A program made the position numbers and the translations under genes. From a virus, in IMG/VR virus record IMGVR_UViG_3300033143_006101, positions 1 to 64,000 of that record: a stretch of DNA of 64,000 nt, one strand, 5' to 3'. Of this stretch, positions 6,065 through 22,933 are shown one piece after another (position 1 is the first letter of the stretch; each line of letters starts with the position of its first letter). A model generated the notes under the pieces. That model was not told the origin of the DNA, ran no database searches, and saw nothing but the letters and a program-made list of their open reading frames with translations.

Positions 6065-6067
6065 AAG

Positions 6068-6608: not shown

Positions 6609-6811
6609 AGCAAACAGTAACTATTAATATTGAAGGTAAACGACGAAGTGGTAAGTCTTTAATAGGAAAGATTATCAAAGATTATTTAGAATCTCTTGGT
6701 TTAGATGTTATATGGAATGATGCATATACAATTCATTTCCCTGATAAATTAGATTGGAATAAATTTGATAGGGATGGACAAAATATTACTATAAATTCTG
6801 AACATGATTAA
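6605..6811 (+). CDS. Small P-loop NTPase-like protein
   Basis: The product has 68 residues. INIEGKRRSGKSLIGKII (residues 7-24) is a Walker A-like loop following a hydrophobic strand, with the GxRRSGKS form seen in small phage P-loop proteins. A second strand (LGLDVIWND) follows. The protein is too short for a complete kinase or ATPase fold, so it may be a degenerate or minimal nucleotide-binding domain. It overlaps the previous gene by four bases. Confidence 0.6.
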   Translation: MKQTVTINIEGKRRSGKSLIGKIIKDYLESLGLDVIWNDAYTIHFPDKLDWNKFDRDGQNITINSEHD

Positions 6812-6822
6812 AGGAGAATAAG

Positions 6823-7143: not shown

Positions 7144-7152
7144 GGGGATACT

Positions 7153-7380
7153 ATGAAAGTATCAAAAATAATAATTGAGCATGAAGGAGAAGAGTTTGTA
7201 TTTCCTGTGTATGAAGAAGAAGGTGGTTTCTGGACTACTTTAGAAGTTCGTCCTGGGTGGCATTTGAATACTCAGACATTTGATGAAAATACTTATGATG
7301 AACTTATAAAAAATGTTAAAGAAGCTTTTAAAGCACTTATTGAAGAGGATAAAAAAGAGAAGGAAGAAAAAGAAGAATAG
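7153..7380 (+). CDS. Hypothetical acidic protein, HicB-like fold possible
   Basis: The product has 75 residues. It begins with a beta strand (MKVSKIIIEHEGEEFVFPVYEEEGGFWTTL) followed by a helix NVKEAFKALIEEDKKEKEE. The strand-strand-helix order resembles antitoxin HicB-type small proteins, but the usual motifs are not complete, so this is only a fold guess. It has a poly Glu/Lys C terminus and AGGGGGAT as ribosome site. Confidence 0.55.
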   Translation: MKVSKIIIEHEGEEFVFPVYEEEGGFWTTLEVRPGWHLNTQTFDENTYDELIKNVKEAFKALIEEDKKEKEEKEE

Positions 7381-7416
7381 TATGTCAATAACAGATACTG
7401 ACATTCAAAAAAATAA

Positions 7417-7500
7417 GCCTCTGTGGTGGAGCTGGAAGACACGCCAGATTTAGGATCTGGTGCTCGAAAGGGCGTGGGGGTTCGAAACCCTCCAGGGGCA
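7417..7500 (+). tRNA. tRNA-Leu (TAG)
   Basis: The acceptor is GCCTCTG/CAGGGGC, and the anticodon stem CCAGA/TCTGG has loop TTTAGGA (anticodon TAG). A long variable arm typical of Leu follows, then T-stem GGGGG/CCCTC with TTCGAAA loop. The discriminator is A73. CCA is not encoded. The length is 84 bases. Confidence 0.93.
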
Positions 7501-7512
7501 AAGGAGAAAAAT

Positions 7513-7671
7513 ATGGATAAAGAACATATGTTATTAGTTTTAGGTGGCGTTGTGCTCATAATAGTAATAATCGTAGCAAACTTTAAATATCCTTATTCTC
7601 AAATAAACCATAAAGGTCGTATAGATGGTTTAGAAAAACGTATGGAGACATTGGAAGAAAGGATTAGATGA
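7513..7671 (+). CDS. Small single-pass membrane protein with coiled-coil tail
   Basis: The product has 52 residues from ATG 7513, with AAGGAG at 7501-7506; a longer frame extends into the tRNA and is not used. Residues 6-24 (MLLVLGGVVLIIVIIVANF) form one membrane segment. The tail IDGLEKRMETLEERIR has heptad-like Leu/Met spacing. The topology (short N terminus, one helix, C-terminal coiled coil) resembles phage i-spanin or XhlA-like proteins, but the length is small. It overlaps the next gene by four bases. Confidence 0.6.
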   Translation: MDKEHMLLVLGGVVLIIVIIVANFKYPYSQINHKGRIDGLEKRMETLEERIR

Positions 7672-8015
7672 AATTAGCTATTGTAGGCTCAAGAAATTTT
7701 AAGAGTTTTAGGAAAATGTATTTAAGCATTCAAAAATTAATGGAAGTTTCTGATATAGAATTAATTGTTTCTGGAGGAGCCAAAGGTGCAGATACACTTG
7801 CTGAGCATTTTGCTGATATGTATAATATACCAAAAAAGATATTTAAACCAGATTGGAATACATTCGGTAAAAGGGCAGGCTTTCTTAGAAATAAAGACAT
7901 AGTTGATACAGCCGATCAAGTAATAGCATTTTGGGATGGAAAAAGTAAAGGTACCAAATCAACTATTGATTTAGCAAAGGAACAAAATAAATTATTAAAA
8001 ATAATAAATATATAA
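7668..8015 (+). CDS. DUF2493 / SLOG-family nucleotide-binding protein
   Basis: The product has 115 residues. It starts LAIVGSRNF, has SGGAKGADTLAEHFA at about 39-53, a KPDW motif and a terminal RNKDIVDTADQVIAFWDG plus STIDLAK. This is the DUF2493 (YspA-like) branch of the SLOG/Rossmann superfamily, whose GGxxGaD loop binds nucleotides or nucleotide-derived signals. Members are common in phages and plasmids; the exact ligand is not known. It is coupled to the previous gene (ATGA overlap). Confidence 0.85.
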   Translation: MKLAIVGSRNFKSFRKMYLSIQKLMEVSDIELIVSGGAKGADTLAEHFADMYNIPKKIFKPDWNTFGKRAGFLRNKDIVDTADQVIAFWDGKSKGTKSTIDLAKEQNKLLKIINI

Positions 8016-8026
8016 GGAGATGCTAG

Positions 8027-8311
8027 ATGAAAGTATTAGGAGATGCAGTTTTAGTAAGAGAAGAGGAGCCTGATGAGGAAAAAAAAGTAGGAAGTCTTTA
8101 TATTCCTCCCAGTGTTGAACATGTTCTTTGTTATGGAACAGTAGTATCTGTAGGAAGAGGGGTTATTTCTGCAGGGAAAATAGTTGGTTCAGAATTATCA
8201 GAAGGAGACAGAATAATGTTTAATGCTCATACTAAAGTACCTATGGAAATTGAAGGAGAAGAAAAAAATCTTTTTCTGATTAAAGAAAATCAAGTATTAG
8301 CAATTTTGTAA
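8027..8311 (+). CDS. GroES-like co-chaperonin
   Basis: The product has 94 residues, the normal GroES length. It begins KVLGDAVLVREEE, has the mobile-loop region EKKVGSLYIPPS at about 19-30, YGTVVSVGRG at 36-45, LSEGDRIMFNAHTKVPMEI and the end LIKENQVLAIL. Phage GroES homologues such as T4 gp31 replace or modify the host cap on GroEL to fold the large capsid protein. No GroEL gene is in this window, so it presumably works with the host chaperonin (inference). Confidence 0.88.
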   Translation: MKVLGDAVLVREEEPDEEKKVGSLYIPPSVEHVLCYGTVVSVGRGVISAGKIVGSELSEGDRIMFNAHTKVPMEIEGEEKNLFLIKENQVLAIL

Positions 8312-8321
8312 GGAGAAATAT

Positions 8322-9128
8322 ATGATACTTAAACCAGGATCAGTACCAGAACCATTTGAAATGTTTACAGAACATCGTCCTTGGGGATATTATGAAAGAT
8401 ATGGAGATAATGTGCATTGTACACCTAAGATTCTTTATGTTAAAAAGAATGAGATGCTTTCAATGCAATACCATTTCAAGAGAGACCAATTTTATCTTGT
8501 ATTAGATGATCATTTTATTGTAGAGTATAGTAGTAAGCCTATTCCTGTTGAAATATTAGATGAACCAAATGAAGCAAAGCGTTTCGCAGAAGTAGAGCAA
8601 TTTTTAAAAGATCATTTGATAGTTACTACTGGATTTGTAGGATCTAAGTTTGGATTTAAGAGGCATGTCATTCATAGGGTAACTTACGTAGGAGAACAAG
8701 AAACAGGTAAGATTTTTGATCTGGCTTTTGGTGTTAATGATGAGACAGATATTGTTAGAGTAAAAGATGAGTATGGAAGAGAGAGCAAAAAGTTAAAATA
8801 CTATGATAAGACTTGTCTTTTTGACATTATACAAGATAAAGTCAGAAAAGACCTCCAATCTCCAGCTATTCTAATAATAAAACAGGAAAGAGAGCAAAAT
8901 TATGGTAATATTTTAGATAATTTTCCTACTGCAAAGCAACAAATACTGTATGATTTGCAAAAAGAAGGATATGCTCTTATTAAATTACCAGCAGAACTGG
9001 ATGGATCGGCGTTTTTTGCAAAATTACAACCAAAGTATACTAATGAATCTTTAAGTTTTATCTTAATGAATGAAAAAGGGGAAATAGTAAAATATTTTCC
9101 TCAAGATACGTTTGGAACAATCAAATAA
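8322..9128 (+). CDS. Cupin protein, type II mannose-6-phosphate isomerase-like
   Basis: The product has 268 residues. The N-terminal part reads EHRPWGYYERY, then KKNEMLSMQYHFKRDQFYLVLDD, matching the P-W-G and L-S-x-Q-x-H cupin signatures of the C-terminal isomerase domain of bifunctional mannose-6-phosphate isomerase/GDP-mannose pyrophosphorylases. The second cupin motif has KRHVIHRVTYVG. About 90 extra residues at the C terminus (from LQSPAILIIKQ) are unrecognised. It would act in hexose-phosphate metabolism for surface sugars. The stop is directly followed by a tRNA-Leu gene. Confidence 0.75.
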   Translation: MILKPGSVPEPFEMFTEHRPWGYYERYGDNVHCTPKILYVKKNEMLSMQYHFKRDQFYLVLDDHFIVEYSSKPIPVEILDEPNEAKRFAEVEQFLKDHLIVTTGFVGSKFGFKRHVIHRVTYVGEQETGKIFDLAFGVNDETDIVRVKDEYGRESKKLKYYDKTCLFDIIQDKVRKDLQSPAILIIKQEREQNYGNILDNFPTAKQQILYDLQKEGYALIKLPAELDGSAFFAKLQPKYTNESLSFILMNEKGEIVKYFPQDTFGTIK

Positions 9129-9213
9129 GCTGCGGTGGTGAAATTGGTAGACACATCAGGTTTAAGCCCTGATGCCCTTTAGTGGCATGGGGGTTCAACT
9201 CCCCCCCGCAGTA
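9129..9213 (+). tRNA. tRNA-Leu (TAA)
   Basis: The acceptor is GCTGCGG/CCGCAGT (G1 pairs with U72 as wobble), the anticodon stem TCAGG/CCTGA has loop TTTAAGC (anticodon TAA), and a long variable arm and TTCAACT T-loop follow. The discriminator is A73. CCA is not encoded. The 3' 19 bases overlap the end of the convergent heptose kinase gene. Confidence 0.92.
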
Positions 9214-10151
9214 ATGCTTTCTAATTCTTTTCGTGTAATAGTTCTGGTTCCAAATTTTTTAACTACAATACTTGCAGCTTTATTGGCGAGTTTAGTACAT
9301 TTGTGTATTGGGCAACCTGATGCTAAAGTAACTGCTAATATTGCTATTACAGTATCACCTGCTCCAGACACATCATAAACATCCTGGGTTTCTACAGGTA
9401 AATGGATGCATTTTTTGGATGAGATTAAACTCATACCTTTGGAAGATCTTGTAATTAAGAGATATTGGAAGCCATATTCTTTAATAATTTGTCTTCCTAA
9501 AGTTTCTATTGCAGTATCATTGTTATCCACTTTTTTATTAACAAGTGTGGATAACTCATTTAAATTTGGGGTTACAATGTAAGCTTTTGTATATTTAGAC
9601 CAATCTGTTCCCTTTGGATCCACAATGGTTTTTTTATTCCAAGTTATTGCTACTTTAATTATATATTGGCATAAATCATCATCAAGTAACCCCTTATTAT
9701 AATCAGATAGTATTACACATTCAAATTTATTTATATTATCAAGAACTTGATTTCTTATTGTTTTTTTTATTGCAGTTGTGGGAGGTGAATAATCTTCTGT
9801 ATCTATTCTAACTATTTGTTGATATTGAGCAACTATTCGCGTTTTAGTTATTGTAGTACTTTGAGTATCATACAAGGAGTAATATATGTTTCTTTCCTCT
9901 AATAGCTTTTTTAAAATGGATCCATAGTTATCTTTCCCAATTAGTCCTATTAAATAAGGATGGGCATGGACAGATGCAATATTATCAGCTACATTTGCTG
10001 CTCCACCCGGGTTTTGTATTATTTTATCTACTTTAATAACAGGAACGGGTGCTTCAGGGGATATTCTATCAACATTACCTATGTAATATTGATCTAACAT
10101 AGCATCCCCGATAATTAATACTGTTGCATTGGAAAAGTTTAAGTTTTTCAT
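9195..10151 (-). CDS. hldA: D-glycero-beta-D-manno-heptose-7-phosphate kinase (HldA/RfaE1 type)
   Basis: This PfkB-family kinase phosphorylates heptose-7-phosphate at C1 in ADP-heptose (LPS core) synthesis. Signatures are DAMLDQYYIGNVDRISPEAPVP at 16-37, PGGAANVADN at 48-57, the middle VDPKGTDWSKY and the C-terminal DVSGAGDTV at 260-268 with catalytic Asp266. It has 318 residues, matching the stand-alone kinase domain; the adenylyltransferase half of HldE is absent. It is the only minus-strand gene, and its last codons are encoded by the T-arm and acceptor of the convergent tRNA-Leu. A promoter copy lies upstream at 10219-10188. No Shine-Dalgarno sequence is obvious. Confidence 0.88.
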   Translation of the reverse strand: MKNLNFSNATVLIIGDAMLDQYYIGNVDRISPEAPVPVIKVDKIIQNPGGAANVADNIASVHAHPYLIGLIGKDNYGSILKKLLEERNIYYSLYDTQSTTITKTRIVAQYQQIVRIDTEDYSPPTTAIKKTIRNQVLDNINKFECVILSDYNKGLLDDDLCQYIIKVAITWNKKTIVDPKGTDWSKYTKAYIVTPNLNELSTLVNKKVDNNDTAIETLGRQIIKEYGFQYLLITRSSKGMSLISSKKCIHLPVETQDVYDVSGAGDTVIAILAVTLASGCPIHKCTKLANKAASIVVKKFGTRTITRKELESITAGGS

Positions 10152-10187
10152 ATCATGTTTTTTTTGAGTAAAAAATATTACATATTA

Positions 10188-10219
10188 CATGATACTTAAA
10201 ATAGATGAAATTTTAAGGT
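10188..10219 (-). promoter_or_regulatory. Putative phage promoter for hldA (minus strand)
   Basis: On the minus strand the sequence reads ACCTTAAA (10219-10212), 16 bases, then GTATCATG (10195-10188). The first box is identical to the box upstream of the sheath operon and the spacing is the same. The second box keeps the TATCAT core. It ends 36 bases before the kinase ATG. Confidence 0.55.
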
Positions 10220-10254
10220 AAAAAATAGTAGTTAAAAAAGAATATAACTCCATT

Positions 10255-10286
10255 TCCCTAAATTATATAAAAGATCTTCTATCATT
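10255..10286 (+). promoter_or_regulatory. Putative phage promoter for the 10323 unit
   Basis: TCCCTAAA (10255-10262), then 16 bases, then CTATCATT (10279-10286). The second box matches the consensus at seven or eight positions and the first at six of eight. It lies 36 bases before the GTG start at 10323 and diverges from the hldA promoter. Confidence 0.5.
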
Positions 10287-10322
10287 TAATATGTTTATAA
10301 AGTACAAATAAGGGGGATAATC

Positions 10323-10616
10323 GTGTCAATTTTGAATTGCTTTGATTGTACATATAATAAAATAGGAGCTGAATGCACCCATCCAAAAAGTAGTTCACGT
10401 AAATATGATGAAAACCAGTATCACTGTACATTTTTTAAAGAAAGAAAAAAAGCAAATCTTACAGTAGTAAAATGTTTAGAATGTACGTATCATGAACCAG
10501 CTGATTGTAAACATCCTAAAAATACCCCAGCTAATTTTTTAAATTTTTGGTATAGAACTGGCGATAAAGAATGTAATTACTTTAAGAAAAAAAATGATGT
10601 TTTAGTACGACAATAA
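10323..10616 (+). CDS. Tandem Cys-rich (zinc-ribbon-like) protein
   Basis: The product has 97 residues, starting at GTG 10323 after AAGGGGGAT. Two units are visible: CFDCTYNKIGAECTHPKSS (6-24) ending HCTFFK, and CLECTYHEPADCKHPKN ending ECNYFKK. Each has Cys-x2-Cys, a Cys-x-His-Pro-Lys and a final Cys-x-x-Phe, so a gene-internal duplication of a four-Cys metal-binding domain is likely. No function is known to me. It begins the first transcription unit after the divergent promoter region. Confidence 0.7.
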   Translation: MSILNCFDCTYNKIGAECTHPKSSSRKYDENQYHCTFFKERKKANLTVVKCLECTYHEPADCKHPKNTPANFLNFWYRTGDKECNYFKKKNDVLVRQ

Positions 10617-10635
10617 ATAAGAAAGATGGTATAAA

Positions 10636-10896
10636 ATGAATGATATAATTAATGCTTTATTTGAATTAGGTGGTGCTATTCTAACATGGTTTAATGTAAA
10701 GAAAATCCTAAAAGATAAAGAAGTAAAAGGTGTATATTGGCCTATTTGGTTATTCTTTACAAGCTGGGGATATTGGAATTTATATTATTATCCCAGCGTA
10801 GATCATCAATGGAGCTTTTATGCTGGCATATTATTAGTATTTGGTAATACGGTATGGGTTTCATTAGCATGGTATTATAATAGAAAGCAGAAGTAA
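10636..10896 (+). CDS. Small integral membrane protein
   Basis: The product has 86 residues with three hydrophobic stretches: ALFELGGAILTWFNV, WPIWLFFTSWGYWNLYYY and FYAGILLVFGNTVWVSLAWYY. A KKILKDKEVKGVYW loop lies between the first two. This pattern, with a first helix and a KGVYWP motif, recurs in small phage membrane proteins of unknown role (from memory of the family, not searched). It sits between a Cys-rich protein and two tRNAs. Confidence 0.7.
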   Translation: MNDIINALFELGGAILTWFNVKKILKDKEVKGVYWPIWLFFTSWGYWNLYYYPSVDHQWSFYAGILLVFGNTVWVSLAWYYNRKQK

Positions 10897-10921
10897 TTTA
10901 GATTTGATTTTTTATACATAT

Positions 10922-10992
10922 GGGTCGGTAGCTCGAAGGACGAGCAACGGGCTTTTAACCTGTAAGCGAGAGTTCGATTCTCTCCCTGCCTA
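10922..10992 (+). tRNA. tRNA-Lys (TTT)
   Basis: The anticodon stem ACGGG/CCTGT has loop CTTTTAA (anticodon TTT), the D-stem is GCTC/GAGC with a short loop, and the T-stem GAGAG/CTCTC has the canonical TTCGATT loop. The acceptor GGGTCGG/CCTGCCT has a C-U mismatch at 5-68 and two wobble pairs. The discriminator is A. CCA is not encoded. Confidence 0.85.
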
Positions 10993-10996
10993 ATAA

Positions 10997-11069
10997 CTCT
11001 CCGTAGCTCAGTAGGAAGAGCATCTGCCTTCTAAGCAGATTGTCACAGGTTCGAGCCCTGTCGGAGAGG
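10997..11069 (+). tRNA. tRNA-Arg (TCT)
   Basis: The acceptor is CTCTCCG/CGGAGAG, the D-stem GCTC/GAGC, the anticodon stem TCTGC/GCAGA with loop CTTCTAA (anticodon TCT), and the T-stem ACAGG/CCTGT with TTCGAGC loop. The discriminator is G73. CCA is not encoded. It reads AGA, a frequent codon in this AT-rich genome. Confidence 0.93.
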
Positions 11070-11081
11070 CATGGAGAAAAA

Positions 11082-11267
11082 ATGGAGTTAAGAACATTTA
11101 TAGACATGCCCATTCTTAACACACAACAAATAGATTCTATGTCTAATGAAGAATATAAAAAGTTGTGCGAAAGGGGTAAACATAAGATTAAAGAAAGTTA
11201 CTGTCATATTGGAGAAGATATTATGGATGTAATTGTAAAAGGCAGAAACTTTGATAGATATGCTTAA
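11082..11267 (+). CDS. Small hypothetical protein
   Basis: The product has 61 residues from ATG 11082, with GGAG at 11072-11075; the longer frame from 11040 lies inside tRNA-Arg and is rejected. It is soluble with one Cys pair spaced widely (KKLCERG, SYCHIG). A central helix SMSNEEYKKLCERGKHKIKE is likely. No family is recognised. Confidence 0.55.
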   Translation: MELRTFIDMPILNTQQIDSMSNEEYKKLCERGKHKIKESYCHIGEDIMDVIVKGRNFDRYA

Positions 11268-11273
11268 ATAACT

Positions 11274-12060
11274 ATGAGACCGGAAAATATGTATAATTAC
11301 CCAAAATATTTTTATGGAGTAATCTATAAGATTACAAACATTCAAAATAATAAATGTTATATTGGAAAAACTTCTAATGTATACTTTAAAAATATATTAG
11401 AAGTCATTTTTATGAGGCACTAAAAAAGAGAGATAACAATAAGAGATATTTTTATAATACTATAAGAAAATATGGAAAAGAAAATTTTAAAATAGAAATT
11501 TTAGGTTTTTGCTATTCTGAAGAAGAGTTATATGAATCTGAGATTGAATGTATAGCTTTTTATCAAAGTAGTAATTCACTTTATGGATATAATTTAACAA
11601 AAGGTGGGGATGGTGGAGATTTAAGATGTAATTTTTCTGAAGCAGATAAATTAAAATGGAGAAAAAAGATAAGTAAAGCAACAAAAGAAAGAATACCGTG
11701 GAATAAAGGATTAACAAAAGAAACGGATAAAAGAGTATTAAAAAGTAGTAATACGATGAAAAAGCATGTGCGAACAAAAGAACATTGTGAAAAAATTAGT
11801 AAAGCTATTAAAGGTAAAAAAAGATCAGATGAAATAAAAAAGAAAATGTGTGAGGCACACAAAAAAAAATACGGAAATGGTTTTTTTGGAAAAAAACATA
11901 CTAAAAAACAAAAGAAAAAATGAGTTTATTACGAAAAGGAAAACCGAGTAAAAGAAAAGGAAAAATGCATGAGGAGATCTTTGGAAAAGAAAAATCGAAA
12001 GAAATAAAAGAAAAGATAAGAAGCACACTTTTAACTAAAAATTCTAAAAAGGTAGAATAA
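11274..12060 (+). pseudogene. GIY-YIG homing endonuclease gene with two frameshifts
   Basis: The N-terminal piece YFYGVIYKITNIQNNKCYIGKTS is a GIY-YIG catalytic start. It runs into a stop at 11421-11423. Adding one A to the A5 run at 11388-11392 restores the frame: KKYIRSHFYEALKKRD, then IRKYGKENFKIEIL and YNLTKGGDGGD. That frame holds NUMOD3-type repeats (WNKGLTKET, SKAIKGKKRSDE, GKKHTK). It then meets TGA at 11921. One more A in the A6 run at 11903-11908 restores a further 46 codons, MSLLRKGKPSKRKG onward, to the stop at 12058. Both faults are missing single As in homopolymers, so either real decay or sequencing error is possible. It is a free-standing homing endonuclease between tRNA and HNH genes. 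Confidence 0.75.
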
Positions 12061-12061
12061 T

Positions 12062-12619
12062 ATGGAAGAGACCTTAGTTTTAAACACAGGATATATTCCT
12101 ATTAGAATTGTATCGGATCGTGAGGCTATTTGTCTTCTTTATCAATCAAAAGCTTATACTGTAATTGAAACTGATCGTGTAATGCGTTCACCTTCAATTG
12201 TATTTAAAATACCATCCGTAATTGCTCTTGTAGGATATAATAAATTTCCACAAAGGAAAGTTGGATTTTCTAAATTGAATATAATTTATCGTGATGATAT
12301 GACTTGTCAATATTGTGGAAAAAGATTTAACATGAATGAACTTACAATAGATCATGTTATCCCAAGAAGTAGATGGGCAGATGAAAAAAGAACAAATAAG
12401 AAAAATTGGACAAATTGGCTTAATTGCGTCTGTTCATGTAAATGGTGCAATAATGCAAAAGGGAATAAACTTCTTCATGAATTAAGATGGAGTTTACCTA
12501 GAAAACCTTTTGAACCAAAATATCTGCCTCATATTGTTATTTCTTTCGATAAAGCAGAAAAAAAAGGTTGGATCCCATTTTGCAAATTTAATGTAAAATT
12601 ACTGAACAGACTTTCATAG
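12062..12619 (+). CDS. HNH endonuclease
   Basis: The product has 185 residues. CQYCGKRFNMNELTIDHVI (82-100) has the first zinc Cys pair and the DH of the HNH motif. CSCKWCNNAKGN (124-135) has the second Cys pair and the Asn. The N-terminal LVLNTGYIPIRIVSDREAICLLYQSKA is typical of a widespread stand-alone HNH family of bacteria and phages (LVLNxxYxPLxI ... A). The enzyme is probably a DNA nicking or cutting nuclease; its biological role in phage is unclear. It starts one base after the GIY-YIG stop. Confidence 0.85.
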   Translation: MEETLVLNTGYIPIRIVSDREAICLLYQSKAYTVIETDRVMRSPSIVFKIPSVIALVGYNKFPQRKVGFSKLNIIYRDDMTCQYCGKRFNMNELTIDHVIPRSRWADEKRTNKKNWTNWLNCVCSCKWCNNAKGNKLLHELRWSLPRKPFEPKYLPHIVISFDKAEKKGWIPFCKFNVKLLNRLS

Positions 12620-12629
12620 GAGGACAGTA

Positions 12630-12755
12630 ATGAGGGATAGATATTATAGTGCAGATGATTTTGTAGAAGACATTCTTGACATAGCGTCAGATGTTTTTGA
12701 GATTTTTATTGATATAAGTTTAGGTATCATAGGTCTTGCGTTTAATGACTTCTAA
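12630..12755 (+). CDS. Very short hypothetical protein
   Basis: The product has 41 residues with a strong AGGAGG site seven bases upstream of ATG 12630. It has an acidic, aromatic N terminus and a hydrophobic end (VFEIFIDISLGIIGLAF) that could lie in the membrane. It overlaps the next gene by 11 bases. No family is recognised. Confidence 0.5.
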   Translation: MRDRYYSADDFVEDILDIASDVFEIFIDISLGIIGLAFNDF

Positions 12756-12870
12756 GAATCTAAAACATAGAAGCGAAGATAGTATTATTGGTTCATTTTT
12801 ACTTATTTTAATGGTAGCATCTGCAGTAGCTTTAGTTATTGCTTGCGGATATCTATTATTTAATGGGTAA
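12745..12870 (+). CDS. Very short membrane protein
   Basis: The product has 41 residues. The ATG at 12745 lies in the last codons of the preceding gene. A basic N terminus (TSKNLKHRSED) is followed by one membrane helix, IIGSFLLILMVASAVALVIACGYLLF. A small holin, toxin or accessory membrane peptide would all fit, and nothing separates these options. The stop lies four bases before a tRNA. Confidence 0.5.
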   Translation: MTSKNLKHRSEDSIIGSFLLILMVASAVALVIACGYLLFNG

Positions 12871-12874
12871 ATAA

Positions 12875-12946
12875 GCCCCTGTAGCTCAGTGAAAGAGCAC
12901 ATGACTACGGATCATGGTGTCGAGGGTTTAAATCCTTCCAGGGGCA
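12875..12946 (+). tRNA. tRNA-Arg (ACG)
   Basis: The acceptor is GCCCCTG/CAGGGGC, the D-stem GCTC/GAGC with a short loop, and the anticodon stem CATGA/TCATG with loop CTACGGA (anticodon ACG, expected to be edited to ICG). The T-stem GAGGG/CCTTC has loop TTTAAAT, with T in place of the usual C56. The discriminator is A. CCA is not encoded. Confidence 0.87.
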
Positions 12947-12980
12947 CAGGTATATTATAATGAGACCGGAGATTAAAATT

Positions 12981-13250
12981 ATGAAACTATATAAATGTAG
13001 GTGTATGATAATCCCTGAAGAGGAATTAGAAATACAAGAATATAAAGAAGGAGCTTTAAAAGAAAAGTATTGTTGTGACGGCTGTGATGCTTATTTTTAT
13101 CCTTGTAACCTCTTCAATTACTTTATGTATTATCTTGGTAAACCTTTTGGGTATGAAGCTTGGGGTTTGAACGAAATGCTGACTTGGAATGATATAGAAT
13201 GGTGGTTAGTAAAAATAAAAGTAAGAATAGAAGAATTTTTTAATAAGTGA
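12981..13250 (+). CDS. Cys-rich hypothetical protein
   Basis: The product has 89 residues from ATG 12981, which has GGAG at 12967-12970. An in-frame ATG at 12960 would add seven residues but has no ribosome site. KLYKCRCMIIPEEE and YCCDGCDAYFYPC supply six Cys in paired arrangement, a likely zinc-ribbon; the C-terminal half is aromatic and helical (EWWLVKIKVRIEEFF). The TGA stop (13248-13250) lies inside the acceptor stem of tRNA-Ile. No family is recognised. Confidence 0.6.
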   Translation: MKLYKCRCMIIPEEELEIQEYKEGALKEKYCCDGCDAYFYPCNLFNYFMYYLGKPFGYEAWGLNEMLTWNDIEWWLVKIKVRIEEFFNK

Positions 13251-13319
13251 CCGTAGCTTAATTGGTAAAGCATTCGGATGATAACCGAAGGAGCGAAGGT
13301 TCAATTCCTTCCGGTCGCA
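13247..13319 (+). tRNA. tRNA-Ile (GAT)
   Basis: The acceptor is GTGACCG/CGGTCGC (one T-G wobble), the D-stem GCTT/AAGC, the anticodon stem TTCGG/CCGAA with loop ATGATAA (anticodon GAT), and the T-stem GAAGG/CCTTC with TTCAATT loop. The discriminator is A. CCA is not encoded. The first four bases overlap the stop of the previous gene. Confidence 0.92.
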
Positions 13320-13366
13320 ATAAAATAGTTGATATAGTCGAACTTACTGTATATATTAAATTTAAA

Positions 13367-13906
13367 ATGTATAGAAGGTTCGAATCTATAAAAAACACTA
13401 GAAGATTAAATGGTTATATTGTTATATATAAACCAGATCACCCCAAAGCAATGACATCCAAAAATTGGGAGGGTTATATTTACGAGCATATAGTGGTTGC
13501 TGAACAAATATTAGGTCGAAAACTGACAAGTACCGAGGTTACACACCATGAAGATGAAGTAAGTTCAAACAATAGTCCAAGTAATTTAAAAGTTTTTAGA
13601 ACACGAGGAGATCATAATAGATACCATAAAGGATTTGAAATTATTAGATTATCAGATAGTACGTATTAATGTAGTATTCATTCCTGCATAGATTGTGGTA
13701 AAGAGCTTTTTAAAGTAAAAATTACTAGATGTTGGGAATGCCATAAAATTTGGAAAGCAAAAAACATACCTTCAAAAAAGGTTTTAGAAAAGTTAATTTG
13801 GAAAAAACCAACAGTATATATAGCAAAGGATTTTGAAGTTTCAGACAAGGCAGTAGAAAAATGGTGTAAGAAGTATAATCTTCCAAAACCCCCAAGAGGT
13901 TATTAG
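13367..13906 (+). pseudogene. HNH homing endonuclease gene interrupted by an in-frame TAA
   Basis: From ATG 13367 (no clear ribosome site) the frame encodes an HNH_3-type domain: NWEGYIYEHIVVAEQILGRKL, EVTHHEDEVSSNNSPSNL and HNRYHKG. It ends at TAA 13667-13669. The same frame then continues open for 78 codons to TAG at 13904-13906. That part reads as the usual C-terminal half of such endonucleases: CIDCGKELF and CWECHK zinc pairs, then a helix-turn-helix-like PTVYIAKDFEVSDKAVEKWCKKYNLPKP. I infer one gene of about 179 codons broken by a nonsense codon, or read through. The codon after the TAA is TGT, as in the interrupted gene at 3256. Confidence 0.72.
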
Positions 13907-13923
13907 ATGAAACATAAATATAA

Positions 13924-14000
13924 GGGTTCTTAGCTTAGCTGGTCGAAAGCACTTGACTCATAATCAAGAGATTTCCTGGGTTCGAATCCCAGAGAGCCCA
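13924..14000 (+). tRNA. tRNA with CAT anticodon (elongator Met or Ile2)
   Basis: The acceptor is GGGTTCT/AGAGCCC, the anticodon stem CTTGA/TCAAG has loop CTCATAA (anticodon CAT), and the T-stem CTGGG/CCCAG has TTCGAAT loop. The discriminator is A. The absence of three G-C pairs in the anticodon stem and the paired position 1-72 rule out an initiator. Lysidine modification to Ile2 cannot be judged from the sequence. CCA is not encoded. Confidence 0.92.
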
Positions 14001-14515: not shown

Positions 14516-14887
14516 ATGCCAAGAAAAGTTAAAACTATAGGAAATGATTTACCATCTCCTAGTAGTAAGCATCAAGTTTTAGGAACTGTTTTTTTAGTAC
14601 AAGAAGGTACATCTACTGGAATTTATACTTTTAATTTTGAAGATGGTAGTATCATATACTTCGAAAATGAAATCAAACAATCTTTTGAATATCTTTTAGT
14701 GGATAACATAGGAGAAGGTAGAGTACGCTTCGCTTTTAATAAAATAGGTTTACCATTAGTTAGTTCAATAGACGGAGCAAAGACGTTGCGTGCCGGGGAT
14801 AGTTTGTATATCCAGGATTTTGTAAGAAATATCACTCTATTTTTTATAGAATCTTCTATTGTTGAATTAGTTTTAATGTCTAAATAG
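14516..14887 (+). CDS. Hypothetical beta-rich virion protein
   Basis: The product has 123 residues and starts one base after the previous stop. Alternating strands are visible: VLGTVFLVQEGTSTGIYTF, IIYFENEIKQSFEYLLV, RVRFAFNKIGLP, and a hydrophobic end NITLFFIESSIVELVL. This resembles a jelly-roll or beta-sandwich accessory protein. It carries the TSTG tetrapeptide common in the tail proteins of this phage. No family is recognised. Confidence 0.6.
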   Translation: MPRKVKTIGNDLPSPSSKHQVLGTVFLVQEGTSTGIYTFNFEDGSIIYFENEIKQSFEYLLVDNIGEGRVRFAFNKIGLPLVSSIDGAKTLRAGDSLYIQDFVRNITLFFIESSIVELVLMSK

Positions 14888-15818: not shown

Positions 15819-18800
15819 ATGGCTATAATAACTTCAAAATACCATCAAGACTTAAATACAAGTTGTGGTATACATATCCCTCACTCGTTTGAATATGCTA
15901 CGTCTACTGGTAGAATAAATGCTACAGGATTAACTGCAGTAGATGTTTATAAATTAGCTCTGCAAAAAAGTGATGATACTTTATGGATTTTAACAAATCA
16001 TGGTCCTGTTACCTGGAAATTACTTGGTGGTGCTACTTGGGGTACTATTACTGGAACTTTATCCGATCAAACTGACTTGCAAGATGCTTTAGATGATAAA
16101 TCTGATACAACACATGGGCACACACATGCTTCTACTACCGGAAAAACAGCAAATGATCACCATAACCAACAGCATGCTATTGATGGGAGTGATCATACAG
16201 GCACATTGGATCACTCAGAAATAAACGACGATGAGAATACCAAGCATAGGATTATAAATGATGCAGATACGAGTGTTACTGAGTTATGGTCAGCTGATAA
16301 AATAAATACTGAACTCGGGACAAAAACTAGTACAGGTCATACACATGAAGAATCAGATATTACTGATTTAGATCATGATGCTCAAAAAATTAAGGGAGTT
16401 ATAGTCGATGACTCGGCCAAAGCGGATGGAAAGGTACTAACATATGAATCCTCAACTGGAGAGATAATATATGGTGATGTAGTAACTACTGATGAGAAGG
16501 TTAAGGCAAGTGCGGGTGATCCTACAACAGGATATTTAGATGCTAAAGTTGACAATGCAACTATAGAAATAAGTGCTAATAAATTAAAAGTTAAAGATAG
16601 TGTATTTTCAAGCACGGGCCATGCCCATACTGAATCGGATATAACAGATTTGGATCATTATGATAGTTCTGATTTCTCTACAGATTTTGGGAATGCCGAT
16701 CTTGCAAATCTTGGTACTAAAAACCACAGTGATCTTAATGATGATGAAGTCGCACAGCACCGTATTATAAATGATTCAGGAACTAGTGCTACTGAACTCT
16801 GGTCAGCTGATAAAATCAACGCAGAGTTGAATACTAAAACTTCAACTGGATATGTGTTAGATCAATTCACAGATATGAAAGAGCCCACCGGATTTCCCAA
16901 TAGAACAGATAGTACTATATCGTTCTCTGATTCAAGCCCAGACAGAACTTTTACTATTGCTCCGGCAGTAAGTACTTTTGACTACTATATTAAAGGAGTA
17001 AAGTATACAAAATCTGGTGCGGTGACACGGCAAATAACTGACGACGAAGGATTGCACTTTATATATTTTGATGGGGAAACCCTTACATCGACAACTACCT
17101 GGAGTGATATTCTTTTTACTGATTATGCCATAGCATCAATAGTTTATTGGGATGATGACAACAATTTACATGTATACTTCGCAGACGAACGACATGGCAT
17201 AACCATGGATGGGGCGATGCATAAACTGTGGCACGATATTATTGGATGTGCGTGGGAAGAAGGATTAGCTTTAGGAAACATGACTGTAAATGGTAGTGGT
17301 GATGTTAATAGCCACGCCCAGTTCTCTGTATCTGATGGAGAAATACATGATGAAGATTTGGAACATGAGATAGAAGATGGAAGTCCTCAGGATTTAAGTA
17401 CCATCGCACAGATACCTATTATGTATCGCTCTGGTGCTACTGGCGTATGGCGTATGAAAGCAGCAGATGACTTCCCAATCATATATGATGGGACTGCTGG
17501 TTATAATCCAACAGGTGGCAACGATAGAGTACCCTATAACGAATGGACTGGTAGTACTTGGCAACTCATAGAAGTAGGATCAGATAATGACTTTGTTCTC
17601 GTTCATTATTTTGCTACTAATGATACCGAACACCCTATTATTGGAATACAAGGGCAAGATGAGTATACAAATCTCGGCAATGCTAGAGAAGGTGCAACTA
17701 CCGAAATAAATAACCTAGTGACTTCAGGTCTACCAACTGCTGAGTTTACACCAATAGCTACATGTATTTTTCAAACTAATGATGACGGTTATACTAATAC
17801 TCCTCATGCAAAAATAAGAAGCACTGATACTGGAGATGATTATGTAGATTGGAGAGGTTCAAAATTATCTCAATCTGCGGGTACTAGCAGTCACCCAAAC
17901 CTATCTGAATTAGGCTTCGATGAATCAGGCCATAACGGATTCCAGAGAGAAACATATCAAGATACTTCTAATCCTGATGCAGACCATGATAGTGCAGATA
18001 CTAATGCTATAGGTATAAAATTCAGAGCAGGTGACTTCTGGGAAAACACAAGCACGGATATCGTATATATATGCCTTGATGCTACAGCTACTGCTGCAAT
18101 ATGGAACGCGATTGTAGATGTGAGTACAGGCCAAACTCTTACAAATAAAACTCTAACTACACCTACTATTGGCGACTTGACAAATGCTACACATGACCAT
18201 ACTGATAATGCGGGTGGTGGTGTTCTAAATCACTCAGACTTGAACGATGACGAAGCTACAAAACATAGACTTATAAATGACTTGGATACTTCCGCAACCG
18301 AGTTATGGTCCTCAGATAAGATTAATACTGAACTTGGGACAAAGACTTCAACAGGCCACACCCATACAGAAAGTGATATTACAGATCTCGATCACGATGC
18401 CCAGAAAATTAAAGGTGTTATTGTTGATGATTCAGCAAAGGCTGATGGGTACGGATTAGTTTATGAAAGTTCTACGGGAAATATTATATATTCGGCTAGT
18501 GCTGGTGGAACAGACAATAATGCTATTCATGACAATATAGCTGGCGAAATATCTATTATTACAGCAAAGAGTTCTCCGACAGGCTCAGATAAGCTTTTGA
18601 TAGAAGATGCTGCAGATACCAATAAAAAGAAGAGCATAGATATTCAAAATCTTCCACTTAGGCCATTGACCGATGCTTATATTTGGGTTGGGATCGGTGG
18701 AGTTGAAACAGCTGTACCTTTGGCTCATACTCATAACCATGCGACTGATATTACTAATGTTCTTCCAGATCAACATCATAATGAAGATCATCAGGCCAGA

Positions 18801-20942
18801 CATAATAGTGGGGGTGCCGATGCGTTAAAACTTGATGATTTAGCTACTCCCGATGACAATACAGATCTAAACGCCACAACTTCTGCACATGGTTTATTGA
18901 AAAAACTTGATAATGACGCAACCCATTTTCTTGACGGACAGGGAAACTGGAGCACACCAGACCATGCTAAGTTATTAAACCTTGATTATGTGGGCTCAGA
19001 ACATACAGGGTTTATGCGTGATGCTTATCTAACAACTTCAGATCCTACGGAAGAAAATGATAATGCAGACACGGCTGCCCTGGGTCGGGAGTTTAATGAA
19101 GGTAACGCTTGGGTCAATACCTCTTCGGGTCGGGTGTTTGTTTGTAAAGATGCTTCACTAGGCGAGGCTATATGGTATGAGGTAGGTGCGTATGATATGG
19201 ATATGCTAACTGGTTATACTATGAAATATATTTCAGACGAAGAAGTTGAGATTGCTTTCGGTTACTGTAGAGATAATAATGATACTTGGAATATTGATTC
19301 ACATATTCCTTTGACGATTGATATAACTGACAGCGGGAAAAATGGATTAGATGTTGATAGTGTTACAGCAAACTCATGGTATTTTGTTCATGTTATTAAG
19401 AATCCGACTACCCTGGAAGTGGCTGGACTATTCTCTCTTAGTCAGTACAAGCCAACTCTTCCGAGTGGCTTTACAGTATTTAGAAATATCGGAGCGTTTC
19501 CGACAGATGGAACAAGTGATTTAATAGCAGGCCATACAGTAGGGGAAGGACTGGATAAATATTTTATATATGATATAAGACATGAGATGGCGTATGCTGA
19601 TACTACTGGTTCGTGGGAGGATGTTGATTTAAGCAGTCGTGTTCCTCCTGATGTGCGGCTGGTGGAGTTAGGATTTTCAACTCCGTCTGGTGGAGATGAT
19701 GGAATTTATGTAAGAGAAAAAATATCAGGTCAAGGGTCAACTGATTATCAATTAGATATACAATTATCCGGTGGGCCAGGTGCGTGTACTAGTAGATGTG
19801 GCTGTGATGAAGATCAGATTATTCAGTGGAACTCGTATTGGGGTGGCGGTGCATGGTATCTGTATGTGTTAGGATTTTATATATCGTTAGCTGCGACAAA
19901 ATTTGTAGGTATATATTGGGAAACAAGTGACTTCGATGAAAGTCAGCAGATAGATTTTGATACAACAGCTTCCGGTGCGAATGTATCGGGTAATGTTACA
20001 AACTTCCCAGTATGTGTAAGGATAACAGACACAGATATTTTAGATGCAGTAAGAGATGGTGCTCCTGATATAAGATTTCTTGATAAGGATGGAACAACAT
20101 GGCTGGACTATGAAGTTGAGAAATGGGATAAGGTCGGCGAAGAAGCAGTTGTTTGGGTATTGGTTCCACAGATAGATGGCAATAAAGATGACGATTATAT
20201 CACTATGTATTATGGTAATATTTGGGTACAAGATGGTCAGGATAGCAAGGCTGTGTTTAGTATTGCTAATGGCTTTCTTGGAGTATGGCACATGAATCAA
20301 GATCCATCTGTAGAGGATATACACGACAGTTCTGAAAAAGGAAATGATGGTGTACCTACTGCTAATATGGAAGATTATGATTTGATGGCAGGCCCAATAA
20401 ATAAGTCTATTGATTTTTATGTTGATGGCTCTGAATATATAAATGTAACAGGTTTTGATGAAGATATGACTGATGCGACTTTGAGTGCGTGGGTATATGT
20501 AGATACAGAAGAAGATACGGTCAAGGGCGTGTTGTTCAGCAGAGGTACAGATACTTGCGGATTACACTTGTCAGATGATTCTGGTGATAATAGAGTTTGC
20601 TATCACTGGGATGGGGATGCTGGTGCTTGGGGTTGGCAAGGTGGCGGTATTGTAGATGCAGAGGAATGGAACTTTGTCGCCATGACTATTGATGCAGATG
20701 CGGACGATACAGGGTATGTTGGAAAGAACGACGGTGATTGGGATAGTGCAACAAACTCTATAACTACTGGAACGGTTACTCTGGACGATTTAAGGATAGC
20801 AACGGATGAGGCATCCGCATCCAGAGGGTTCGATGGTAAAATTGCAGAAGTAAGAATTGAGAGTGTTATACGAACAGACGACTGGTTGAAGTTGTGCTAT
20901 ATGAATCAGAAAGCGACTGATAAGTTAATAAGTTTTCCATAA
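15819..20942 (+). CDS. Large tail fibre with DUF2341/LamG-like receptor-binding end
   Basis: This 1707-residue fibre presumably recognises the host surface. The N-terminal half has repeats built on HSDLNDDE...KHRIIND...ELWSADKINTELGTKT and HTESDITDLDHDAQKIKGVIVDDSAKADG, together with many His/Asp-rich shaft segments, typical of trimeric fibres. From about residue 1365 (TSDFDESQQIDFDTTA) a DUF2341-like domain is followed by a LamG/concanavalin-type lectin: FLGVWHMNQDP, DDATLSAWVYV-type strands and GKIAEVRIESVIRTDDWL. The lectin is a likely receptor binder (inference). It starts directly at the preceding stop and is followed by a DUF4376 protein that may assist its assembly. Confidence 0.85.
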   Translation: MAIITSKYHQDLNTSCGIHIPHSFEYATSTGRINATGLTAVDVYKLALQKSDDTLWILTNHGPVTWKLLGGATWGTITGTLSDQTDLQDALDDKSDTTHGHTHASTTGKTANDHHNQQHAIDGSDHTGTLDHSEINDDENTKHRIINDADTSVTELWSADKINTELGTKTSTGHTHEESDITDLDHDAQKIKGVIVDDSAKADGKVLTYESSTGEIIYGDVVTTDEKVKASAGDPTTGYLDAKVDNATIEISANKLKVKDSVFSSTGHAHTESDITDLDHYDSSDFSTDFGNADLANLGTKNHSDLNDDEVAQHRIINDSGTSATELWSADKINAELNTKTSTGYVLDQFTDMKEPTGFPNRTDSTISFSDSSPDRTFTIAPAVSTFDYYIKGVKYTKSGAVTRQITDDEGLHFIYFDGETLTSTTTWSDILFTDYAIASIVYWDDDNNLHVYFADERHGITMDGAMHKLWHDIIGCAWEEGLALGNMTVNGSGDVNSHAQFSVSDGEIHDEDLEHEIEDGSPQDLSTIAQIPIMYRSGATGVWRMKAADDFPIIYDGTAGYNPTGGNDRVPYNEWTGSTWQLIEVGSDNDFVLVHYFATNDTEHPIIGIQGQDEYTNLGNAREGATTEINNLVTSGLPTAEFTPIATCIFQTNDDGYTNTPHAKIRSTDTGDDYVDWRGSKLSQSAGTSSHPNLSELGFDESGHNGFQRETYQDTSNPDADHDSADTNAIGIKFRAGDFWENTSTDIVYICLDATATAAIWNAIVDVSTGQTLTNKTLTTPTIGDLTNATHDHTDNAGGGVLNHSDLNDDEATKHRLINDLDTSATELWSSDKINTELGTKTSTGHTHTESDITDLDHDAQKIKGVIVDDSAKADGYGLVYESSTGNIIYSASAGGTDNNAIHDNIAGEISIITAKSSPTGSDKLLIEDAADTNKKKSIDIQNLPLRPLTDAYIWVGIGGVETAVPLAHTHNHATDITNVLPDQHHNEDHQARHNSGGADALKLDDLATPDDNTDLNATTSAHGLLKKLDNDATHFLDGQGNWSTPDHAKLLNLDYVGSEHTGFMRDAYLTTSDPTEENDNADTAALGREFNEGNAWVNTSSGRVFVCKDASLGEAIWYEVGAYDMDMLTGYTMKYISDEEVEIAFGYCRDNNDTWNIDSHIPLTIDITDSGKNGLDVDSVTANSWYFVHVIKNPTTLEVAGLFSLSQYKPTLPSGFTVFRNIGAFPTDGTSDLIAGHTVGEGLDKYFIYDIRHEMAYADTTGSWEDVDLSSRVPPDVRLVELGFSTPSGGDDGIYVREKISGQGSTDYQLDIQLSGGPGACTSRCGCDEDQIIQWNSYWGGGAWYLYVLGFYISLAATKFVGIYWETSDFDESQQIDFDTTASGANVSGNVTNFPVCVRITDTDILDAVRDGAPDIRFLDKDGTTWLDYEVEKWDKVGEEAVVWVLVPQIDGNKDDDYITMYYGNIWVQDGQDSKAVFSIANGFLGVWHMNQDPSVEDIHDSSEKGNDGVPTANMEDYDLMAGPINKSIDFYVDGSEYINVTGFDEDMTDATLSAWVYVDTEEDTVKGVLFSRGTDTCGLHLSDDSGDNRVCYHWDGDAGAWGWQGGGIVDAEEWNFVAMTIDADADDTGYVGKNDGDWDSATNSITTGTVTLDDLRIATDEASASRGFDGKIAEVRIESVIRTDDWLKLCYMNQKATDKLISFP
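16350..16430 (+). repeat. Fibre internal repeat, copy 1 (protein-identical to copy 2)
   Basis: These 27 codons encode ESDITDLDHDAQ...SAKADG, repeated identically at protein level at 18369-18449. The DNA differs at 16 of the 27 codons, all synonymous. The similarity extends upstream through KINTELGTKTSTGHTH. Confidence 0.85.
18369..18449 (+). repeat. Fibre internal repeat, copy 2
   Basis: This is the second copy of the 27-residue unit at 16350-16430. It encodes the same amino acids with different synonymous codons at 16 positions. A partial third unit (HSDLNDDE to TKTSTGYV) is at about 16726-16866. Confidence 0.85.
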
Positions 20943-20951: not shown

Positions 20952-21479
20952 ATGAGCAAGATACCATATCAAATATTAGTAGAGTCATCGACAGGAAAAG
21001 TTCTATCAGCTGGGTATACCAGACTTAGAGCTGGTGAAGGACAGACAAGGTATAAAAATGAGCAGTTACCTGCTGGAGCAAATCTAGCAAATGAGACTTG
21101 GTATCGAACAAGTACAGGTTATGAGACTAATACATTAGTTACAAATAAAGCAAATAGAATAAAAGAAATTGATGAAAAAACTAAAGAGCTGATTGAACAA
21201 GGGTTCGCGTTTGATGGGCACATATTTAGTTTGTCTTTGGAAGCACAAAAAAACTTCCTAGCTTTAAAAACTGTGTCTGCTTTGATGTCCTGGCCAAAAG
21301 CATTGACTACAAAATGTGATATGGAGTATCTGTTAGCAGAAGAAGATTTAGATGCTTGTATAGGAACAGGGCTTGCTGTTGTAAATGGCTATCTTGATTC
21401 TGGTAGAGCTTTAAAAATAAGTACTAATGCTGCTACAACACAGGAAGAGCTTGACGCTATTGTAGATAATAGAACATAA
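20952..21479 (+). CDS. DUF4376-containing tail protein (fibre-associated)
   Basis: The product has 175 residues with AAGAGG upstream. The C-terminal part, KEIDEKTKELIEQGFAFDGHIFSLSLEAQKNFLAL (about 75-109), matches the DUF4376 pattern: a helix, G-F-x-F-D-G, then S-x-x-A-Q-x-N. Such domains are common in proteins encoded just after phage tail fibres, often with fibre-assembly or tip roles. The N terminus (YQILVESSTGKVLSAGYTRL) is beta-rich. It follows the large fibre by ten bases. Confidence 0.75.
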   Translation: MSKIPYQILVESSTGKVLSAGYTRLRAGEGQTRYKNEQLPAGANLANETWYRTSTGYETNTLVTNKANRIKEIDEKTKELIEQGFAFDGHIFSLSLEAQKNFLALKTVSALMSWPKALTTKCDMEYLLAEEDLDACIGTGLAVVNGYLDSGRALKISTNAATTQEELDAIVDNRT

Positions 21480-21488
21480 AGAGGGGCT

Positions 21489-22223
21489 ATGAAAAAGTTG
21501 ATATTTGTAATACTGCTAATAGTACTATCTAGTAGTACTTATGCAGAAAGTAATCCATTTCAATTATATAAGCCTAATTATATAATAGCTGGTAATCAAG
21601 ATGATCAGGTAAAAGGACAGGTATCTTTTAAATATGCTTTAATATATCCTGAGAATATAGGGTTATATTTTGGTTATTCCCAATTAATGTTTTGGGATGC
21701 ATATAAAACATCGTCTCCTTTCAGAGATATTAATTTTAACCCGGAATGTTTTTGGTTTCATCAATTTAATTATGGCATGCTAGATAATATACAAGTTGGT
21801 CTTATTGAACATAAATCTAATGGTAGAGATGGTGAAGAATCCAAGGGATGGAATAGAAGTTATTTACGATCCCAGATTAGTTATGGTACTAGAATAAACA
21901 TAGGATTTATTGGCGAAGTTTTTTATTTATATGGATTAAGTAGTAACAATGAAGATATTGGTGAATATATAGGTTTCTATGAAGCAGAATTATTTATAAA
22001 ATTCAAAAAAAGAAGAACAAATTGGACTAGTAGAGAATCTATATATATTCGTGGTGGATCTAGTTTATCTAAAGGTTGGGTTGAAGGTGGTATCAAATTT
22101 AGATTAGTATCATATAAAATTCAACCTAATTTGTATTTACAAGTATTTCATGGTTATGCAGAAAGTTTATTAGAATATGATGAGAAAGAAACAGCTATTC
22201 GTCTTGGTGTAACTATGGAATAA
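21489..22223 (+). CDS. Outer-membrane phospholipase A homologue (OMPLA/PldA)
   Basis: The product has 244 residues, with a signal peptide at residues 1-19 (cut predicted near TYA-ES) and alternating amphipathic strands of a 12-strand barrel. Catalytic residues of OMPLA are all present: His108 and Ser110 in EHKSNGR, and Asn122 in GWNR. The spacing (2 and 12) is the same as E. coli His142, Ser144 and Asn156. A calcium-site Ser lies four residues before the Asn (S118). FWDAYKTSSPFRDINFNPE and DIGEYIGFYEAEL match conserved segments. The enzyme hydrolyses outer-membrane phospholipids when activated. A phage copy next to the tail fibre gene could help lysis (inference). It is followed by a strong terminator. 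Confidence 0.85.
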   Translation: MKKLIFVILLIVLSSSTYAESNPFQLYKPNYIIAGNQDDQVKGQVSFKYALIYPENIGLYFGYSQLMFWDAYKTSSPFRDINFNPECFWFHQFNYGMLDNIQVGLIEHKSNGRDGEESKGWNRSYLRSQISYGTRINIGFIGEVFYLYGLSSNNEDIGEYIGFYEAELFIKFKKRRTNWTSRESIYIRGGSSLSKGWVEGGIKFRLVSYKIQPNLYLQVFHGYAESLLEYDEKETAIRLGVTME

Positions 22224-22245
22224 TAGCTATGGATCCATAGTTAAG

Positions 22246-22284
22246 TTAAAAAGCCCTAAAGATACCTTCTTTAGGGCTTTTTAA
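22246..22284 (+). terminator. Rho-independent terminator after the OMPLA gene
   Basis: A perfect 16-bp inverted repeat, TTAAAAAGCCCTAAAG (22246-22261) with CTTTAGGGCTTTTTAA (22269-22284), encloses a 7-base loop, and the 3' arm includes the T-run. It works in both orientations by symmetry. A separate palindrome, CTATGGATCCATAG, sits at 22227-22240. Confidence 0.92.
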
Positions 22285-22331
22285 TAGATTTAAAAAATTA
22301 AGCATTTCCTTTACAATTTTGTACTTCAATC

Positions 22332-22420: not shown

Positions 22421-22933
22421 ATGGCTGATTATAAAGGTGTTATAAGATTTATCGGAGAAAACAACGACTTCGCTTTAGTTGAGGAAACTCGTATTTATCA
22501 AAATAATATTGATACAAGTACAGGAATTGGAACAGGAGATGGGTCTGAAAGAACGTTCTCTGGATCATTAGAACCAGTTGTAGAAGAAGGCGAACTCGTA
22601 ATTAACGTAGATGGTGCAGCACAAAATGCTTCTGATTCTGGTGGAGTTATTTCTGGTAGTGATATCACAACTTCATCAGGATATGTCAGTGCTATTGATT
22701 ATGCTTCTGGTGCAATTCAACTTACTTTCACTGTTGCAGCAACACCACCAGCAGATAAAGCAGTAGATGCAGTATATCAATATAGTGCACCTTCAGAATT
22801 TCCAGAAGGATTAAAGTTTATAAAAGGTGACTTTTCAAACTTTAGTGTTGGGGATTCTATAGGTTACGATTACGATGTCGATGCAGACCTTAAAGATGGT
22901 TATTATATATCAGAAGCTTATATAGAAGCTTAG
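22421..22933 (+). CDS. Putative virion decoration or structural protein
   Basis: The product has 170 residues with an excellent AGGAGGAG site and its own promoter, suggesting high expression. The middle, GTGDGSERTFSGSLEPVVEEGELVINVDG then GYVSAIDYASGAIQLTFTVAATPPADKAVDAVYQYSAP, has the pattern G-D-G-x-x-x-T-F ... V-x-I ... I-D-Y-x-x-G-x-I-x-L-T-F of a beta-sandwich domain found in phage structural proteins. The acidic ends suggest an exposed surface. A capsid or neck decoration role is plausible (inference). Confidence 0.65.
   Translation: MADYKGVIRFIGENNDFALVEETRIYQNNIDTSTGIGTGDGSERTFSGSLEPVVEEGELVINVDGAAQNASDSGGVISGSDITTSSGYVSAIDYASGAIQLTFTVAATPPADKAVDAVYQYSAPSEFPEGLKFIKGDFSNFSVGDSIGYDYDVDADLKDGYYISEAYIEA

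Follow-up and report, generated by a model that had tools for sequence, protein, structure and literature searches.

Is the ORF at the end of the tail-fibre unit of this phage really an outer-membrane phospholipase A (OMPLA/PldA), does it belong to the phage, and to what use might a phage put such an enzyme? The window analysed here, a stretch of 64,000 nucleotides, opens an IMG/VR phage contig of 252,876 bp. An earlier note, made from its letters alone, had read the ORF as an OMPLA barrel that might help to break the outer membrane at lysis, beside or in place of spanins, or else remodel the envelope. The E. coli enzyme is a Ca2+-dependent serine hydrolase that is activated by dimerisation and acts on outer-leaflet (lyso)phospholipids (PMC5874903, PMC5043575).

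Family, fold and active site

A Pfam profile search of the ORF recovered PF02253 (PLA1) with 130.4 bits (E=1.1e-37), above the family cut-off of 27 bits, and the match covers the whole domain, from position 35 to 256 of the 257 in the profile. The closest solved sequences in a phmmer search were the OMPLAs of S. typhi (7ezz, E=1.8e-16) and E. coli (1qd6, E=4.6e-16). An AlphaFold model, built from an alignment of 48 OMPLAs of viruses and bacteria, folds as a barrel (mean pLDDT 89.3, pTM 0.82), and all eight of its best PDB matches in Foldseek are OMPLAs (TM 0.73-0.77, E about 1e-12); the predicted fold agrees with the 12-strand outer-membrane barrel of this family. Among the viral structures of BFVD the model found no match below E=1e-3. 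The identity and barrel fold read earlier are confirmed by these searches, and we regard the assignment to OMPLA/PldA as near certain.

The catalytic residues lie exactly where the earlier note had placed them: His108, Ser110 and Asn122 correspond to H142, S144 and N156 of E. coli and keep the HxSNG...N spacing of that enzyme. A mismatch of the catalytic Ser or Asn, which had been named as a possible objection, was sought in the alignment, and Ser, His and Asn are all intact. Across the 48 aligned proteins S75, H108, S110, N111 and G112 show no variation at all. The residues S75, R113 and S118 occupy the positions of the E. coli Ca2+ ligands, which we take to be numbered S106, R147 and S152. 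The N-terminus, MKKLIFVILLIVLSSSTYA followed by ESNPF, has the hydrophobic core and AXA-type site of a signal peptide, again as had been claimed, and is predicted to act as an export signal. At the other end the protein terminates in ...GVTME and so lacks the aromatic last residue that typical barrels have. Judged from its sequence and modelled fold, the window OMPLA appears to be a catalytically competent enzyme.

Position in the phage genome

The placement of the gene at the end of a fibre unit and before a terminator stands as described (Table 1). The tail-fibre-associated ORF immediately upstream and OMPLA are probably co-transcribed. Downstream runs a myovirus gene block, with the sheath at 28730 and the baseplate wedge at 43354, and the GC3 of OMPLA (0.143) is like that of the neighbouring genes. 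Within the structural block, 3' of the baseplate gene, we also observed genes for a nucleotide-sugar epimerase, a glycosyltransferase and a methyltransferase (46115-52191), and nine tRNA genes extend over 9 kb upstream of the fibre block (4735-14000).

Table 1. Features of the OMPLA locus, in window coordinates
Feature	Position	Strand	Basis
Large fibre-like protein of 1707 aa at the head of the unit	15819..20942	+	ORF; sequence rich in repeats on inspection by eye
Tail-fibre-associated ORF, 9 bp gap to OMPLA	20952..21479	+	phrog_1348 tail fiber protein, E=7.9e-6
Shine-Dalgarno AGAGGGG	21480..21486	+	read from sequence
OMPLA/PldA CDS, 244 aa	21489..22223	+	Pfam PF02253, PDB OMPLA match, AlphaFold barrel
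Signal peptide (residues 1-19), cleavage predicted after TYA	21489..21545	+	MKK, hydrophobic core, AXA-type site
S75, Ca2+ ligand (E. coli S106)	21711..21713	+	invariant in 48 OMPLAs
H108-K109-S110, catalytic His and Ser (E. coli H142, S144)	21810..21818	+	H and S invariant in 48 OMPLAs
R113, Ca2+ ligand (E. coli R147)	21825..21827	+	alignment
S118, Ca2+ ligand (E. coli S152)	21840..21842	+	alignment
N122, catalytic Asn (E. coli N156)	21852..21854	+	at least 90% conserved in 48 OMPLAs
Intrinsic terminator 3' of OMPLA	22245..22285	+	18-bp hairpin with U tract, -24.7 kcal/mol, z=-8.1
First gene kept in G001, bounding the variable block on the right	22421..22933	+	57% identity to L004:3271-3786

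A related 217-kb viral contig, G001, has homologues of the structural block in the same order at about 30-76% protein identity; OMPLA was not found in it or in a second close relative, G002. Between the G001 homologues of 14516-14887 and of the right-border gene lie other fibre-like genes and an ORF with an N-terminal TM segment and a coiled coil. Since G001 carries a different gene set between the same flanking genes, the fibre genes and OMPLA make up a variable cassette. The same block of G001 includes a membrane protein of the YhhN family (lysoplasmalogenase-type; PF07947, 2e-34) at L016:5501-6151 on the minus strand, L016 being contig IMGVR_UViG_3300017963_000192, an OMPLA-less relative. 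It also includes (L004:1-3149) an HD-domain gene (PF13487, 1e-40) together with ORFs that by eye are STAS-, PAS- and response-regulator-like, signalling genes that are unusual for a phage. A genome search with the protein encoded at 599-2404 of the window gave no informative match.

Distribution and relationships of viral OMPLAs

OMPLA is not a known phage gene, and the suspicion that it would prove unusual was well founded. No PHROG family matched the window protein, and tblastn with three viral OMPLAs against 50,697 phage records (INPHARED) yielded no genuine phage match and no cultured carrier. A literature search, outside which most subscription journals lay, found no report of a phage-encoded phospholipase, only enzymes of animal viruses. 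The INPHARED matches that did arise were rejected: MT839379.1 is bacterial-looking DNA with a glycosyltransferase neighbour and a Bacteroidota-type OMPLA, the 'Acinetobacter phage MD-2021a' record contains TonB-receptor, trkG, ilvA and rpiA genes, and the region matched in a Salmonella record is the chromosomal pldA-recQ; for the Acinetobacter and the Salmonella pair, one record was inspected and the second judged by analogy. Three records listed as phage (MT839379.1, CAKLQF020000008.1 and AGRM01000003.1) are thus apparently bacterial chromosome at the OMPLA match, with a risk of false 'phage pldA' annotations.

A scan of viral contigs with the window OMPLA as a single protein gave no match; alignment-based scans of 2.9 million IMG/VR contigs recovered five further viral OMPLAs, on contigs L022 (17 kb), L023 (39 kb), L112 (117 kb), L025 (151 kb) and L137 (17 kb). 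With the window copy this makes six, every one from a metagenomic contig. A terminase on L023 (phrog_15, 5e-135), a phage-type DNA polymerase on L112 (phrog_405, 1e-80) and tail tube genes on L025 and L137 are phage genes on these contigs, PHROG and Pfam names being taken as annotations throughout. The earlier note had suggested looking for the gene in related phages, with a conserved non-phospholipase use there as a possible objection; no such use was seen in these relatives. A further candidate, L024, was set aside as host flank: it is a GC-rich prophage contig whose pldA lies at the edge and groups with Lysobacterales-type enzymes. From the type of enzyme, the hosts of the OMPLA-bearing viruses would be bacteria with an outer membrane.

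In two trees the window OMPLA forms one clade with those of L022, L023 and L112 (support 98/97 and 97/90), with Bdellovibrionota enzymes as its neighbours (97/93 and 98/91). The window protein is 41-44% identical to the L022 and L023 proteins and about 30-36% identical to the bacterial copies aligned, 36% being the maximum. The L025 and L137 proteins sit on long branches outside this clade; a single origin of the six is not recovered in the best tree and is not rejected (p-AU 0.295), and L025 with L137 as one clade has a p-AU of 0.46. The catalytic His and Ser are kept in all six. The full triad is intact in the window protein and its three clade members, that is, across more than 50% divergence, while the position of the catalytic Asn holds Asp in L025 and Glu in L137, and the L112 protein has no equivalents of R113 and S118.

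These relationships bear on whether the window gene might simply be a host pldA, recently captured or mis-assembled, with no role in the phage. Such an origin would accord with the wide occurrence of pldA in Gram-negative chromosomes, with the host copy flanking the prophage in L024 and with the bacterial nature of the INPHARED matches; but phage genes flank the window OMPLA on both sides, its GC3 is phage-like, its active site is intact, and its nearest relatives, well supported as a clade (97-98), lie in otherwise unrelated viral contigs and are closer to it than any bacterial copy aligned. We consider this origin very improbable.

Gene neighbourhoods and a possible link to lysis

In two of the other viral contigs, and probably in a third, OMPLA adjoins genes of lysis. 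The start codon of the L137 endolysin gene (phrog_465, 2e-33) is at the base right after the OMPLA stop codon, with its Shine-Dalgarno sequence AAGGTGG inside the OMPLA end; next come an ORF of the TM/coiled-coil type and a tail tube gene. L025 has, within 3.7 kb, OMPLA, a response regulator, an Rz-like spanin (phrog_739, 1.4e-5), an endolysin (phrog_465, 6e-26) and the tail tube in that order. The adjacency is probable in L022, where a 107-aa ORF with an N-terminal TM segment and a coiled coil (i-spanin-like) begins 1 bp after OMPLA, and an SLT lipoprotein is encoded 3.3 kb beyond. In L023 an endolysin-like gene (phrog_33083, 4e-10) is found on the opposite strand, 3.9 kb from OMPLA. No such adjacency is seen in L112, where OMPLA stands beside replication genes, or in the window phage.

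The earlier note saw no endolysin in the window, and the endolysin-like gene found in this phage lies beyond it, at 71707-72426 of the contig (phrog_33083, 3e-16) and 49 kb from OMPLA. The suggested part in outer-membrane breakage is supported indirectly, mostly by gene order in L137, L025 and L022, and gains nothing from synteny in the window phage itself, where OMPLA is in the fibre block. The endolysin-like family recurs in the L023 and L112 contigs, both OMPLA-bearing, is one of only three genes found common to the window phage and L023, and is absent from G001 and G002; its co-occurrence with OMPLA, in few genomes, is suggestive. In its lysis region G001 encodes an M23 endolysin and, near it, an outer-membrane protein of the DUF481 family (L126:10589-11389, minus strand; PF04338, 9e-14).

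Other candidate lysis genes are scattered over the contig of the window phage. Spanin candidates are a 74-aa lipoprotein (90275-90499) and signal-peptide proteins at 73257 and 76154; no family support was found for any of them. The protein at 73257-73865 (L006:13257-13865), conserved and next in order after the endolysin-like gene, has a beta-rich C-terminus ending in GVSLNF, and its homologue in G001 (49%) adjoins the lysis genes there. Its family search gave no match; it is a possible outer-membrane lysis component. A membrane-anchored 3D-domain protein (PF06725, 1.6e-11) encoded on the minus strand at 206837-207268 (L013:6837-7268) is a possible second cell-wall hydrolase, distant from the endolysin-like gene.

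Spanins are recognised as lipobox lipoproteins or as type II inner-membrane proteins with a periplasmic coiled coil. OMPLA, whose signal peptide is plain and whose fold is that of an integral barrel, is neither and not a spanin, and may yet act at the same step. A variant of this is that the barrel serves mainly as an outer-membrane anchor that a spanin-like protein of the inner membrane pulls on, catalysis being secondary; a spanin survey allows that an outer-membrane protein could act as an o-spanin (PMC6139136). The i-spanin-like ORF directly after the L022 OMPLA and the Rz-like protein near that of L025 fit this idea, and a simple lipobox scan showed no o-spanin-like lipoprotein beside either. 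However, an anchor would not need the His and Ser that are invariant in all viral copies, and no i-spanin-like gene adjoins OMPLA in the window phage, so we think it quite improbable.

Rather less far-fetched, though still unlikely, is envelope remodelling in mid-infection, by superinfection exclusion, receptor masking or upkeep of lipid asymmetry during host shutdown, or a release of fatty acids as auxiliary metabolism. The housekeeping of PldA, which removes mislocalised phospholipids and signals via fatty acids (PMC5874903), is of this kind; the window OMPLA sits in a fibre block beside host-recognition genes, and the equivalent block of G001 has another lipid-related family in its YhhN protein. 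The coupling of OMPLA to the endolysin in L137 and the cassette with Rz-like and endolysin genes in L025 would, however, be unexpected for a function in mid-infection.

Proposed role in outer-membrane disruption

We favour, as fairly probable, a role of the window OMPLA as an exported late enzyme that helps to destroy the outer membrane at lysis. It would be made late, at the same time as the products of the tail-fibre genes. Its signal peptide would direct its export, and the BAM machinery of the host would fold it into the outer membrane, where it would rest as an inactive monomer as long as the envelope is intact. After the inner membrane and the wall have been opened by holin and endolysin, phospholipids would reach the outer leaflet and Ca2+ would become available; OMPLA would then dimerise and cleave outer-membrane phospholipids and lysophospholipids, the membrane would give way and virions would be released. 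Acting beside spanins or replacing them, it would supply an enzymatic third lysis step. We infer its activity, export, timing, trigger and contribution to lysis. That the intact triad and Ca2+ ligands stand in an OMPLA fold supports this reading, as do the lysis genes that neighbour OMPLA in L137, L025 and probably L022, the endolysin-like gene near OMPLA in L023, and the presence of its family in two other OMPLA contigs and absence from two OMPLA-less relatives. Support also comes from published work, which lists lysis induced by phage as one of the activators of host PldA (PMC11457642) and describes the active enzyme as a Ca2+-dependent dimer (PMC5874903).

Its main weakness is the location in the fibre block, the clearest lysis cassettes (L137 and L025) being outside the window clade. 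The Glu and Asp in place of the catalytic Asn in those two proteins, the replication neighbourhood in L112 and the missing terminal aromatic of the window protein weaken it further. Common coliphages lyse a pldA mutant host in the normal way, so that the host OMPLA is dispensable there. Given the Rz-like protein in L025, OMPLA need not replace spanins.

In family, fold, triad, Ca2+ ligands and signal peptide the window protein is like bacterial OMPLA/PldA (PF02253; E. coli 1QD5/1QD6, S. typhi 7EZZ), and differs in being phage-encoded, in its viral nearest relatives, in its last residue and in its use, probably lysis where that of bacteria is housekeeping. When host OMPLA is activated in phage lysis, the enzyme and the trigger, a breach of the envelope, are the same, but there it is the host's own and here it is supplied by the phage. 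With spanins (Rz/Rz1, unimolecular) it shares the proposed step, outer-membrane disruption as the third step of lysis; they are non-enzymatic proteins that bridge the membranes, whereas OMPLA is a hydrolytic barrel. A precedent for an enzymatic third step is mycobacteriophage LysB, likewise a phage enzyme that hydrolyses a lipid ester of the outer envelope (PMC5707550), although it is an unrelated soluble esterase acting on mycolyl-arabinogalactan in mycobacteria, whereas OMPLA is an outer-membrane barrel for glycerophospholipids.

More tentatively, and at a little short of even chances, several unrelated phage lineages may have recruited OMPLA for an enzymatic third stage of lysis, in which it would dissolve phospholipids of the outer membrane alongside spanins or in their stead, as an equivalent of LysB for Gram-negative hosts. 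The spanin survey found no spanin in about 13% of phage genomes (PMC6139136), and the proposal, if true, would explain for some phages how they get through the outer membrane when no spanin can be recognised. A phage lipid hydrolase linked to endolysin genes offers a concrete and testable alternative to spanins, which are to our knowledge the only general mechanism known for disrupting the outer membrane at phage lysis. The phage OMPLA also provides a gene for probing why OMPLA turns active during phage lysis, and such enzymes might partner endolysins as outer-membrane permeabilisers.
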